A stretch of DNA of 64,000 nt from Curtobacterium sp. MCSS17_007 (GTDB taxonomy: Bacteria > Actinomycetota > Actinomycetes > Actinomycetales > Microbacteriaceae). The stretch's first letter is position 1. The number at the start of each line of letters is the position of its first letter. The notes under the pieces are model-generated. The model did not search any database, had not been told where the DNA came from, and saw nothing but the letters and a program-made list of their open reading frames with translations. This document shows positions 26,388 through 34,440 of this stretch, piece after piece. A program made the position numbers and the translations under genes. The DNA lies in NCBI RefSeq assembly GCF_003234175.2, contig NZ_CP126257.1:434001-498000 (forward strand). Direction: 5' to 3'.

Positions 26388-28807
26388 CCGGGGAGCGTCC
26401 GGACGACGCGCGCGAGCCCGAGGGGACGGCCGGCCCGGCAGACGGGACGGACGGACCGGAGGCCCAGCGCGCGTCCGCCCCGGACGCTCCGTTCCGGGGA
26501 CTCCGGAGCGCCGCCGACATCTTCGGTGCCCCGCGTGCGGCCGACGAGTGGCCTTCGCGCCGTGAGCGGCGCGAAGCGGAGCGGGCGGCCCGTGAGACGG
26601 GTGCGCCCCTGCCCGAGCCGTTCGAGCCGGACAGCGCCGGTGCGGGTCCTACGGACGCGCCAGCGGCCGGCTCGTCGCCCGCGTTCCCGGCGCCGACCGC
26701 TCCGGACCCCGACGACGCCGGGGCCACGCAGGCCATCCGGATGGACGACGAGCTCCGCGAGCCGTCGGAGAACCCGCGGGCCGTGGTCGAGCACGAGCGC
26801 GAGACGCTGGGGGAGCGGATCCCGCCGGCCGCGCCGGTGCCGCCGACGAGCACGGTCTCGCACCCGTCCTCGATCTCGCTGCCCACCGCGATGCAGCACC
26901 GCGAGCAGCGTGCCGCCGAGAACCGTGCGGTCGACGACGAGCGCCGTCGGCTCGACCCGTTCGGACAGGGGCGCAGCGACGTCGACTGGCTCGGCCGCGC
27001 GACGGGCACCCCGGCGCCGGAGCCGACGCCCACGGGGCCGGTCGCGCAGCCGATCGGGGTGGGGAACGTCCTGCCGCCGACGCCCGCGGTGTCGACCGAC
27101 GAGCCGCCGAGCTTCACCGAGCTGCTGCGCTTGCAGGGCGCCGAGGACGCCACGAGGACGGGCGCGACGGAGCGGCCGTTCGACTGGGCGATCCGCGACG
27201 ACGAGACCGGCGAGGTCCCCACGACCCTGACCACCGACCGGTTCGACACCACCGCGCTCGGCGCGGGGTCGTGGTCCCTCGCCGACGAGGCCGACGACGA
27301 CGTCGTGACGGGCGAGGTCGACACCCCTGCCGGCGGCCTGCCGGCAGGGCTGCTCGCTGCGCCCGCACCGGTTCCGGCACCCGCCGCTGCTCCCGGGACC
27401 GCGCAGGACGCCCCGACGACGGCCCCGCCCGCCGCGACGGAGCAGGACGCGCCGACGGCGCAGGACGCCCCGAGGGAGCAGGACGCGCCGACGGCGCAGG
27501 ACGCCCCGACGACGGCCCTGCCCGCGGTGGCGCACGACGGCTCGGGGGTCGAGGACCCGACCGCCGGCCACGACGACGAGGACGCGCCGGGCACGGAGAC
27601 CTCCGCGCCCGGCGCCGCCGCAGCCACGCCCTGGTGGGCCGAGCCCGTCGCGACCGTACCCCCGACGGCGGCCCCGCCGCTGGTCGAGCCGGACCCGCAG
27701 ACCGACACCACCGCCTACCCGGCACACCTGCCGCCGTCGGTCGGGCAGGACCTCGGCGGTCTCGCCGCAGCACGCCGCGGACACGACGAGCGCGAGCAGC
27801 CCGGCGGACCCGGGGCGCAGGACGCGGACGACGCCCGCCCCGCCGAGCGCCTGCCCGCCGCCGCGCCGGAGGACCTCGACCAGTCCGAGTGGGACGGCCG
27901 CGAGACGAGCGACACCGGTGTCATCAAGGACCTGTTCGGCACGGCAGCCGTGGGGCAGCTCGGCGACAGCGGGTACGACCCGGACGACTCCGGTACCCGG
28001 ATGATGCCCGCGGTCGGCGCAACCGGCGCACCTGGCTCGACCGCCCCGACGGACTCGGCCGGCGCACCGGCACGTGCTGCCGCCGCACCCGGTCCGGACG
28101 GCGCCCGGGGCGTCGCCGGCGACGTCGCGGGCAAGGACTCCGAACGCGACAACTTCATCAACGAGGGCTTCGGACGGCTCGCAGGCGAGGGCAAGCGGGG
28201 GAAGCAGCTGCTCGTCGTCGGCGCCGTCGTGCTCATCGTCGTGCTGCTCCTGGCGGTCTTCGGCCTGACCCGCTGGATCCTCGGCGGCTCCATCAGCGAG
28301 GAGACCGCACCGGCCTCGAGTGCGAGCGCGACCTCGGCAGCGTCCGGCGACGCGTCGCCCTCCACGGCACCGTCGACCGAGGCGGCCGCCCCGGCGGCGC
28401 CGGCGCAGCCGCTGCAGTTCGCCACGACCCCGGCGGCTCCCGGGCAGCACGCGTGGACGGACCTGGCCGGCGGAGAGTGCCTCTCGCCGTTCGACGACGC
28501 GTGGGCCCAGACCTTCACGGTCGTCGCCTGCTCCGCACCGCACGCCGCGCAGCTCACGGCTCGCGTGCAGGTCGAGGCGGGGGCGTGGCCCGGGCCGGAC
28601 GACCTCCGGGCGCAGGCCGCCGAGGTGTGCCAGACCTCGCAAGCGATCGACACCGCAGCTGCCGCGTCCTACGGCGACGTGCAGGTGCAGGGGTCGTACG
28701 CACCCGACCAGGAGACCTGGGACCGCGGCAACACCTTCATCTCGTGCTTCGCCACACGATCCTCGGGTCAGCCCCTGACCGGCTCGCTCGCCCCGGACGG
28801 CGCCTGA
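26384..28807 (+). CDS. Septum-formation-family membrane protein with long disordered N-terminus
   Basis: The product is an 807-residue protein. About 600 residues of Pro/Ala/Asp/Glu-rich cytoplasmic sequence include a Gln-Asp-Ala-Pro tandem array (about residues 340-380). One membrane span follows (about 608-630, KQLLVVGAVVLIVVLLLAVFG), a Ser/Ala/Thr linker, and a small extracytoplasmic domain (about 685-795). That last domain has GECLSPFDDAW, FTVVACSAPHAAQ and a final ISCFATR, the cysteine pattern of the septum-formation (PF13845-like) domain. It overlaps pyrE by 4 nt, an uncommon pairing. The disordered half resembles scaffolds for FHA or division proteins; the role is inferred. Confidence 0.8.
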   Translation: MTGERPDDAREPEGTAGPADGTDGPEAQRASAPDAPFRGLRSAADIFGAPRAADEWPSRRERREAERAARETGAPLPEPFEPDSAGAGPTDAPAAGSSPAFPAPTAPDPDDAGATQAIRMDDELREPSENPRAVVEHERETLGERIPPAAPVPPTSTVSHPSSISLPTAMQHREQRAAENRAVDDERRRLDPFGQGRSDVDWLGRATGTPAPEPTPTGPVAQPIGVGNVLPPTPAVSTDEPPSFTELLRLQGAEDATRTGATERPFDWAIRDDETGEVPTTLTTDRFDTTALGAGSWSLADEADDDVVTGEVDTPAGGLPAGLLAAPAPVPAPAAAPGTAQDAPTTAPPAATEQDAPTAQDAPREQDAPTAQDAPTTALPAVAHDGSGVEDPTAGHDDEDAPGTETSAPGAAAATPWWAEPVATVPPTAAPPLVEPDPQTDTTAYPAHLPPSVGQDLGGLAAARRGHDEREQPGGPGAQDADDARPAERLPAAAPEDLDQSEWDGRETSDTGVIKDLFGTAAVGQLGDSGYDPDDSGTRMMPAVGATGAPGSTAPTDSAGAPARAAAAPGPDGARGVAGDVAGKDSERDNFINEGFGRLAGEGKRGKQLLVVGAVVLIVVLLLAVFGLTRWILGGSISEETAPASSASATSAASGDASPSTAPSTEAAAPAAPAQPLQFATTPAAPGQHAWTDLAGGECLSPFDDAWAQTFTVVACSAPHAAQLTARVQVEAGAWPGPDDLRAQAAEVCQTSQAIDTAAAASYGDVQVQGSYAPDQETWDRGNTFISCFATRSSGQPLTGSLAPDGA

Positions 28808-32290: not shown

Positions 32291-32633
32291 CTGCGGCTGC
32301 CGCGGCTGCCGCGGCTGCCGCGGCGGCCGGTTCTGATCGCGCGACCTGCCGCCGGCGGTCGGTTCTGATCGCAGGACATGCCGCCGGTGGCGGAAGTGAG
32401 CGGCATGTCGTGCGACGAGGACCCGGGTCTGGAGGCACGGGGCGGGTCGGCACCGGGCCTCCCGTCCGGTGGATGCGCGGGCGGCGCTGGGGGTTCCGGT
32501 CGCAGGACGTGCCGTCGGCGGTCGTTCTGGTCGCAGGACGTGCCGTCGGCGTCGGAGGTGAGCGGCAAGTCGTGCGACCCCGACCGGACGAGCGCGGGGG
32601 ACGGCGGGGGCGGTACCGGGGCTGGGCTCGGGG
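32291..32633. repeat. Intergenic repeat cluster, families C and A, and a 9-bp tandem repeat
   Basis: This 343-bp region between convergent genes holds no gene I can support. It starts with CTGCCGCGG three times in tandem (32297-32323). Family-C left arms (TCGCAGGAC-type) begin at 32337, 32369, 32500 and 32531; right arms are GCGGCATGTCGTGCGA at 32400-32415 (one mismatch to the copy at 32369) and a variant at 32562-32577. A decayed family-A copy spans about 32431-32466. The arms can form hairpins that may end both convergent transcripts. Confidence 0.75.
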
Positions 32634-33323
32634 TCAGTCGGCGTCGGGGGCGAGCCAGATCGACGAGGCCGCGGCGGCCGGGAGGTCGACGAGGGACTCC
32701 TCGCCGTCGGCGGAGCGGCGGGCCACGGCGATCACCCCGGCGTAGTCGCGGACCCGTTCCACACGGAGGTGCGTGCCGAGCCCGACACCGAGCTCGTCGA
32801 AGTAGCGCAGCAGTGCCGGGTCGTCGTCGGACACGCGGTCGACGACGCCGCACGCGCCGGGCTCGATCGTCCCGAGCAGGGTCCCCGGGGACGCGGGCAC
32901 CGTGCCGTCGGCCGCCGGGATCGGGTCGCCGTGGGGATCGTGCGTCGGGTGGCCCAGGTCGGCGTCGACCCGGTCGAGGAACGTCTCTGACACCGCGTGC
33001 TCGAGCGCCTCGGCCTCGGTGTGGACCTCGTCCCACGAGTACCCGAGGCGCTGCACCAGGAACGTCTCGATGAGCCGGTGTCGCCGGACCATCGCCACCG
33101 CCACCTGCTGCCCGAGCGGGGTGAGCACGACGCCGTAGTACGGGGTGTGCTCGATGAGACCGTCGCGGTCGAGCTTCCGGAGGTTGCCCGACACCGTCGA
33201 CGCCGAGACCCCGAGGGCCGATGCGATGTCCCGCGTCGCGAGCCCCTCGCCGCCGCGCTCGGTCGACTTCCACACGAGCTTCACGTAGTCCTCTGCCATC
33301 ACGGACAGGGAGGGCAGGCGCAT
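32634..33323 (-). CDS. mntR: DtxR-family metal-dependent regulator (MntR-like)
   Basis: The product is a 229-residue iron/manganese-dependent repressor. It has a winged helix (about 9-70: MAEDYVKLVWKSTERGGEGLATRDIASALGVSASTVSGNLRKLDRDGLIEH, quoted here only by its ends), a metal-binding and dimerisation domain (VAMVRRHRLIETFLVQRLGYSWDEVHTEAEALEHAVS, with the H/E/C-region ligands) and a C-terminal SH3-like FeoA domain. A DtxR protein next to a Mn-riboswitch-controlled exchanger points to Mn sensing, hence the tentative symbol. ATG 33323 is coupled to a duplicated mini-ORF upstream (33323-33385); the internal ATG at 33299 (MAEDYVK) is the conserved family start and could also be used. Confidence 0.9.
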   Translation of the reverse strand: MRLPSLSVMAEDYVKLVWKSTERGGEGLATRDIASALGVSASTVSGNLRKLDRDGLIEHTPYYGVVLTPLGQQVAVAMVRRHRLIETFLVQRLGYSWDEVHTEAEALEHAVSETFLDRVDADLGHPTHDPHGDPIPAADGTVPASPGTLLGTIEPGACGVVDRVSDDDPALLRYFDELGVGLGTHLRVERVRDYAGVIAVARRSADGEESLVDLPAAAASSIWLAPDAD

Positions 33324-33385
33324 CACAGCACCGCCGTAGTGCAGTGTCCACTCCGGGCCATCACGGACAGGGAGGGCAGGCGCAT
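33295..33385 (-). repeat. Partial duplication of the mntR start region
   Basis: A 29-bp segment occurs twice without mismatch, at 33295-33323 (inside mntR, codons 1-9 plus one base pair beyond) and at 33357-33385, offset by 62 bp. Because 62 is not a multiple of 3 the upstream copy is read in a different frame from mntR and runs into its own stop codon. Confidence 0.9.
33323..33385 (-). CDS. 20-residue leader peptide created by duplication of the mntR start
   Basis: ATG at 33385 opens 20 codons (MRLPSLSVMARSGHCTTAVL) whose TGA overlaps the mntR ATG as TGATG. The first ten residues equal those of MntR. A -10 box TACCAT (complement of 33392-33397) lies 6 nt before this ATG, so the promoter drives a leaderless mRNA that starts here rather than at mntR. 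MntR would then be made by termination-reinitiation. The coding status is inferred from promoter spacing and the overlap, not from conservation. Confidence 0.55.
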   Translation of the reverse strand: MRLPSLSVMARSGHCTTAVL

Positions 33386-33407
33386 GCGTCAATGGTACAA
33401 ACGGCGG

Positions 33408-34289
33408 GTGACCTCCACCGCATCCGTCCGGCGCAGCCGCTGGCCGGTGCCCCCGTCGCTCCTGCTCGGCCTGGCGCCGCTCGTCGCCTTCGCCGCCGTG
33501 AGTGCCTGGCGTTCGCGGCCGAGCGACGACTACGGCACCCTCGGGCAGACGGTCGAGAGCGTGGTCGGTGCGCTCGTGCTCCCCGAGGGCATCGCGGTGC
33601 TCGTGCTCTGCGCCTACGTCACCGCACTGGGCTGGTGGCCGATCGCGACCGTCGACCGCCGTCGGGCGACACTGCGCTGGACGCTCACGGCCCCGGCCCT
33701 CATCGCGCTCGTGTGCGCCGCCCGGCTGCCGCTCGTCGAGTGGGGAGCGCAGCCGCTCCGGTACTTCCTGCTGCTCGCGGTCGGGGTGCTCTTCGTGGGG
33801 GTGTTCGAGGAGCTGCTCACCCGCGGGGTGCTGCTCGTCGGGCTCCGGCGTCGGCTGCCCGAGCTCGGCGTGTGGATCGCGTCGTGCGTGCTGTTCGGGT
33901 TGCTGCACTTCCTCAACGTCCTGGCGGGAGCGGGCGTCGGGGCCACCGTCGTGCAGGTCGTCTTCGCGGCGTCGTTCGGGTCGACGCTGTACCTGACCCG
34001 GCGGCTCACCGGGAACCTGCTCGCCCCGGTGCTGCTGCACGCGTTCTGGGACTTCGGGTCGATCGCGGTGTCGGCGACCGTGCCGACCGGGGACCTGGCG
34101 CGGATGGTGCCGGCCGGGCTCATCGGGCTGTTCGCCTTCGCGGTGCTCGCCCTCGGGGTGGTCGCCGGCGGCGTGGTGGCGTGGCGGGACGACCGGGCCC
34201 ACCGCCTGCGGCGCCGGTGGCGGACGGTACCGCCCATGGTGGCGCTCGCGGTGCAGGTGGACGAGCCGCGCCTCCCGTCCCCCGTCTGA
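33408..34289 (+). CDS. CPBP-family intramembrane metalloprotease
   Basis: The product is a 293-residue polytopic protein related to CAAX prenyl proteases (Rce1/Abi). It has motif 1 VFEELLTRGVLL (E-E-x-x-x-R), motif 2 LFGLLHFLN (F-x-x-x-H) and motif 3 LLHAFWDFG (H-x-x-x-D-like). GTG 33408 lies 6 nt after TACAAA (33396-33401), a leaderless arrangement. An ATG at 33384 would add MRQWYKRR and overlap the divergent mini-ORF start. The promoter overlaps that of mntR on the other strand, so the two are likely regulated together. Confidence 0.88.
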   Translation: MTSTASVRRSRWPVPPSLLLGLAPLVAFAAVSAWRSRPSDDYGTLGQTVESVVGALVLPEGIAVLVLCAYVTALGWWPIATVDRRRATLRWTLTAPALIALVCAARLPLVEWGAQPLRYFLLLAVGVLFVGVFEELLTRGVLLVGLRRRLPELGVWIASCVLFGLLHFLNVLAGAGVGATVVQVVFAASFGSTLYLTRRLTGNLLAPVLLHAFWDFGSIAVSATVPTGDLARMVPAGLIGLFAFAVLALGVVAGGVVAWRDDRAHRLRRRWRTVPPMVALAVQVDEPRLPSPV

Positions 34290-34374: not shown

Positions 34375-34380
34375 CAACTC

Positions 34381-34440
34381 GCCCGCGCCCGCGCCCGCCG
34401 CCGCGCCCGCGCCCGCGCCCGCCGCCGCGCCCGCGCCCGC
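34381..34440. repeat. GC-only tandem repeat
   Basis: Sixty bases without A or T: a 24-bp unit of GCCCGC/GCCGCC blocks occurs twice (34381-34404, 34405-34428) and then half again. It lies in the leader region of the acid phosphatase gene. This is a simple-sequence tract prone to length change. Confidence 0.85.

Follow-up and report, generated by a model that had tools for sequence, protein, structure and literature searches.

How does a cell translate a metalloregulator when a second copy of the gene's own start is placed between promoter and gene? This question is raised by the mntR locus in the window, i.e., the whole analysed stretch of 64,000 nucleotides from Curtobacterium sp. MCSS17_007. 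The gene (32634–33323, minus strand, ATG at 33323) encodes a DtxR-family metalloregulator of 229 amino acids, as assigned by Pfam, solved relatives and codon variation. Its product exceeds the cut-offs of the Pfam models Fe_dep_repress, Fe_dep_repr_C and FeoA and features the hallmark domains of DtxR/MntR proteins (HTH, metal-binding dimerisation, FeoA). The nearest solved chain is 5zr4, a "Metal-dependent transcriptional regulator" (232.7 bits), with IdeR being much less close (75.4 bits). The NCBIfam MntR models remained under their curated cut-offs (NF047407, 173.5 vs. 350; NF008273, 89 vs. 153; NF003025, 59 vs. 138), and the gene is therefore referred to as mntR-type with manganese specificity unproven. 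A sodium/calcium exchanger-family gene (PF01699, 30986–32290) converges on mntR and might serve as the regulator's cation partner. The region between both genes (32314–32585) carries imperfect repeats around GTTCTGRTCGCAGGACRTGCC, with four 48-nt copies at 65–100% and one 62-nt pair at 84%, possibly representing an intergenic repeat element.

The duplicated start and the leader reading frame

An initial annotation of the window had described a perfect 29-bp repeat with an offset of 62 bp, placing a second mntR start upstream and out of frame. This was borne out by exact-repeat comparison. The downstream, genuine copy of the start (33295–33323, minus strand) and the upstream copy (33357–33385, minus strand) are identical at 29/29 positions with a start-to-start offset of 62, and since 62 = 3 × 20 + 2, the upstream frame does not coincide with that of mntR. 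Among 20 random windows drawn from an order-1 Markov model with equal composition, the longest exact close repeat (offset ≤300) comprised 18 nt and none reached at least 20 nt; the real window features two longer ones (37 nt at 34380 and 35 nt at 27439), with the 29-mer being third. The 29-bp repeat is thus well above random expectation. Between the copies lies a stretch of 33 bp (33324–33356, minus strand; compared with two further leader-bearing genomes, see below), for which a simple duplication of the start does not account.

The upstream copy opens a leader ORF (33323–33385, minus strand), recognised from sequence, translation and homologous leaders in two other genomes. It consists of the ATG at 33385–33383, 20 sense codons in total (MRLPSLSVMARSGHCTTAVL) and a TGA at 33325–33323, which has one base in common with the mntR ATG (33323–33321). 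The 20-codon frame ending in TGATG over the real start, as claimed initially, was accordingly found again, and so was the -10 element TACCAT (33397–33392, minus strand), followed by the 6 nt TGACGC up to the leader ATG. This element conforms to a conserved TANNNT and is presumed to be the leaderless mntR promoter in relatives. The creation of the leader ORF by duplication of the start is supported.

Leaders among related genomes and their history

In total, 66 Curtobacterium genomes were searched, and the mntR start was readable in 61 of them. The remaining five genomes offered matches of 35–37% identity only (G002, G042, G043), partial matches in a genome of 73% completeness (G065), or no match due to a contig ending before the gene (G022). 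The named loci, 80 of 561, put the window within Curtobacterium; the rows outside Curtobacterium were viewed by eye and underpin no claim. A single mntR start, with one ATG 6–7 nt after the -10 element, was found in 58/61 loci. Leaders occur in the other three, namely in the window (G000), in Curtobacterium sp. ER1/6 (G006) and in G048. G006 carries two identical tandem 62-bp units before mntR and consequently three starts in series, with each leader comprising 20 codons and a TGATG onto the next start. The leader of G048 (MRLPSLSTMARSSHSTTAA) is a diverged homologue of 19 codons with 59 bp from start to start and the TGATG kept. Its two start copies differ at 4/29 positions, all of them synonymous third codon positions. 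The mntR frame runs into TAG TAG within the insert of G048 while the leader frame is open, which excludes for this genome an MntR with an N-terminal extension across the leader. In all four leader units the TGA overlaps the next ATG, and the unit lengths of 62, 62, 62 and 59 differ by a multiple of three.

As a two-unit and a diverged version exist in two other assemblies, an assembly artefact in a single genome is ruled out. The arrangement had been called unusual and a comparison with related strains had been proposed. This comparison confirmed that the leader is rare, with three of 61 loci, while the two-unit G006 and the old, diverged leader of G048 demonstrate that it is not unique to the window. 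The leader is a real feature, and it is older and more dynamic than could be seen from the window.

What is retained in these leaders is not clearly the peptide. Its second half contains very rare codons (AGT, 2/115 Ser; GGA, 8/180 Gly; ACT, 1/137 Thr; reference of five window genes chosen by the authors), the codons of the leader frame are less gene-like than those of the mntR frame in all three genomes, and the residues of the second half differ between G000 and G048. According to these features the peptide is not clearly selected, and if anything is, it is the linkage. A run of codons for a single amino acid, as expected of an amino-acid-responsive attenuator leader, does not occur in any of the three leader peptides. 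No RNA structure common to G000, G006 and G048 was found, and the hairpins at the junction differ. For the 28-nt ends, shuffled sequences folded as well in 177/1000 (G000), 20/1000 (G006) and 547/1000 (G048) cases, with the end hairpin of G006 standing out singly, and among seven folded stretches only one of 121 nt from G048 stands out (4/200 shuffles). A search of 32900–34000 against Rfam up to E 1 yielded no match.

The stretch between the copies differs at 3/33 positions between G000 and G006, and at 5/30 positions plus a 3-nt gap between G000 and G048. Due to this likeness in all three genomes, it most simply arose once. A single clade of the three bearers was rejected, as they are ungrouped both in the mntR tree (61 rows) and in a tree of rpoB and gyrB (28 of the 66 genus genomes chosen, 27 left after G010 was dropped for a broken gyrB match). 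This scatter implies repeated loss, transfer, or both. Under purely vertical inheritance, 12 losses would have to be assumed when the mntR tree is rooted at G024. In the rpoB and gyrB tree, G000 is sister to the single-start G039 (98/96), to which its rpoB and gyrB are nearer (98.3 and 97.3%, compared with 96.9 and 94.2% for G006), while its mntR is nearer to that of G006 (34/135 fourfold sites differing, compared with 47/136 for G039). Because of this discrepancy between gene histories, transfer was probably also involved. The split between G000 and G048 is deep, with 44/121 fourfold sites of mntR differing.

With regard to the origin of the 33-bp stretch, its 26-base core was found with up to three mismatches only in the mntR leaders of G000 (once) and G006 (twice) among the 66 genus genomes, by a pattern that is blind to a divergence such as that of G048 (five mismatches). 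A looser pattern fitting all three leaders matched 2/398 genomes of the family, again G000 and G006, in a set comprising 10 genomes of the genus and drawn without G048; the reversed control pattern matched in three genomes. As a possible source, the leftover of a partially duplicated mntR was considered. Similarity to mntR codons of about 58–66 was equalled by 6/300 shuffles for G048 (the best of 12 tests), 23/300 for G000 and 101/300 for G006, and a joint test gave 8/500 shuffles as the best of six, with the top match of G006 lying elsewhere (codon 188). In addition, the mntR frame of the stretch has more gene-like codons, yet two stops in G048. The hint at such an origin does not hold up once the number of tests is taken into account.

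Promoter use and translation of MntR

A TANNNT element lies 6–7 nt upstream of the first ATG in 61/61 readable loci, and its spacing to the leader ATG in G006 and G048 equals that of the window. On account of this conserved spacing, mntR was probably leaderless ancestrally in Curtobacterium. Since the 58 single-start relatives have the mntR start at this place, the initial claim that the native promoter now stands before the leader start holds. No TANNNT occurs in the 60 nt upstream of the real mntR ATG in any of the three leader-bearing loci. A substitute leaderless start is therefore not seen, and the idea of a new promoter within the insert was rejected for the same reason.

The divergent neighbour is a CPBP/Rce1-like gene (33408–34289, plus strand; PF02517, 59.7 bits). 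Judged by conservation, its start is likely the GTG at 33408, located 6 nt behind a candidate -10 element TACAAA (33396–33401, plus strand; sequence and conservation), and the gene is possibly leaderless; an ATG at 33384 is not favoured. TACA[AG]N, a motif selected after the sequences were seen, followed after 5–7 nt by the start codon of an ORF of at least 200 amino acids, was found in 55/61 loci and is missing in G004, G049, G050, G027, G028 and G024. The overlap of both promoters noted at the outset is consistent with this candidate, and as the -10 elements have 2 bp in common, the promoters probably compete. In two relatives, G063 (locus L017) and G038 (locus L021), the start of the divergent CPBP gene also occurs in repeated form, in frame and with a period of 15 bp (VEQQD, then VE), and duplications of the start region thus affect both genes of the promoter. 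A dense CCCGCG repeat, including the 37-nt exact repeat with an offset of 24, lies right after the CPBP gene (34380–34440).

Upstream of the real mntR start, an SD-like GGCGGTG (33329–33335, minus strand) is located 5 nt before the ATG. The predicted duplex with the anti-SD amounts to -8.7 kcal/mol in G000, -9.0 in G006 and -5.0 in G048, whereas the 58 single-start relatives average -1.8 kcal/mol and reach -6.5 at best, with 6/58 at -5.0 or lower and 0/58 at -8.7. With moderate confidence, this arrangement is most simply read as a leaderless mRNA beginning at the leader ATG, from which MntR would be made by termination and reinitiation, helped by the SD-like GGCGG, a feature absent from most single-start relatives. 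Leaderless transcription in the genus, translation of the leader and reinitiation are all proposed from sequence comparison. Against this reading stand the rare codons, the less gene-like codon usage and the changing residues of the leader, the G048 pairing within the range of single-start relatives, the differing RNA folds and the occurrence in 3/61 loci only. RNA polymerase would start on or beside the A of the first ATG, as at the presumed ancestral leaderless mntR. By the placement of the 29-bp start copy and the 33 bp between promoter and gene, the mRNA would now open with the 20-codon leader ORF, the TGA of which overlaps the real mntR ATG. Ribosomes would load at the leaderless leader start, finish the leader at TGATG and start anew on mntR with the aid of the GGCGG just upstream. 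Consequently, MntR output would be tied to leader translation, with its level set by the efficiency of reinitiation. The leader may lower this output relative to a direct leaderless start; conversely, it could raise it, as is possible for short coupled ORFs that contain an RBS. The cell would thus probably have to translate one or two short throw-away peptides before MntR.

The presence of GGCGGTG likewise makes independent initiation possible. The insert would then only provide a formerly leaderless mRNA with a leader, the 30S subunit would bind GGCGGTG and start MntR on its own, and translation of the leader would be incidental. The strong pairing in G000 and G006 speaks for this explanation, which is nevertheless considered unlikely. 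In G048 the pairing is as weak as -5.0 kcal/mol, and TGATG is kept although it would not be needed; the latter is a weak argument, since TGATG arises automatically wherever G-TG abuts ATG in the leader frame. It is very improbable that the real start lies elsewhere, i.e., at the ATG of mntR codon 9 (33299) or at the GTG just before the ATG. Both codons do exist in the window, and codon 9 is Met in 58/58 single-start loci, with Ala as the next residue in 57. Still, codons 2–8 evolve as coding sequence, with 129 minority letters at the third, 35 at the first and 22 at the second position among the 58 relatives, and the mntR ATG keeps the conserved leaderless distance in the 58 single-start loci.

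A neutral or mildly harmful relic of slippage, often gained and lost and of no regulatory role, would agree with the scatter of the bearers in the trees, with the single-start relatives close to each of them, with the 12 losses required under vertical inheritance and with the non-conserved second half of the peptide. Such a relic would hardly be expected to persist as a homologous leader with frame and TGATG intact across the deep split between G000 and G048, with the stretch between the copies differing as little as described above, and this explanation is regarded as improbable.

A unit running from ATG to TGATG allows tandem repetition, as seen in G006, with the chain of reading frames left intact. 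In principle, direct repeats readily permit clean deletion, and those of the start would allow a return to one start in this way. More speculatively, and with considerable doubt, the unit might be a self-copying start-to-stop cassette reaching from the ATG of the gene itself to TGATG on the next start, with units being added or removed by slippage and each of them contributing one obligatory reinitiation step. The copy number, zero, one or two in known genomes, would then serve as a translational dial on a metal regulator that is both heritable and reversible.

Comparison with known systems

The mntR leader fits a known kind of element, the leaderless coupled small ORF. In mycobacteria, leaderless genes were described with a normally spaced -10 element and without SD, and leaderless small ORFs were described as coupled to the next gene (PMC4633059). 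The Curtobacterium leader shares with these a short ORF right behind the -10 element with a stop overlapping the next start, and a linkage and position that are kept more than the peptide. The overlap described there is an RTGA tetramer, whereas it is TGATG at mntR. Unlike the small ORFs presented in that report, the Curtobacterium leader copies the start of its own downstream gene, is patchy among close species and is doubled in one genome (PMC4633059). Coupling of overlapping gene pairs was reported for 9/9 pairs of H. volcanii and for all but one of five pairs of E. coli (PMC6728339). The TGATG overlap occurs there as well, as does an intragenic SD-like motif ahead of the second start, although those pairs are annotated genes, while the first ORF at mntR is a leader of 19–20 codons (PMC6728339). 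For reinitiation in E. coli, SD was described as enhancing and not required (PMC2268962). A short coupled ORF can moreover raise expression, as reported for a synthetic uORF in E. coli (PMC13255528). Like the present leader, this is a short nonsense reading frame whose stop lies beside an internal RBS; being synthetic and placed in E. coli, it serves as a warning that the effect at mntR may be up, not down.

The changing copy number has a counterpart in promoter repeats of M. tuberculosis, where a leaderless gene was reported to have a short tandem repeat beside it (unit of 58 bp at lpdA), likewise with polyphyletic copy number (PMC12817950). There, the promoter is repeated and transcription changes, whereas the unit repeated in Curtobacterium is a start-to-stop frame located downstream of the promoter; copy number was also reported to vary within populations of M. 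tuberculosis, while in Curtobacterium variation was seen only between species (PMC12817950). No paper on Curtobacterium mntR was found in the open-access literature. The papers obtained on mntR, manganese and leaderless starts do not deal with this arrangement as judged by title or the beginning of the abstract, and no tandemly repeated leader ORF was noticed among the matches listed in the open-access literature, which is no proof of absence.

The mntR orthologues, which share a conserved and apparently leaderless promoter, form a natural series with zero, one or two tandem leaders. By this means, the behaviour of a leaderless mRNA upon duplication of its start, the efficiency of reinitiation at TGATG in an actinobacterium and the tuning of translation by tandem repeats, as reported for promoters, become testable. 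Compared with the known leaderless coupled small ORFs, the unusual traits are a leader derived from the gene itself and a copy number of zero, one or two chained units. On the whole, the arrangement appears to be an infrequent and changeable form of the known translational linkage between neighbouring reading frames.
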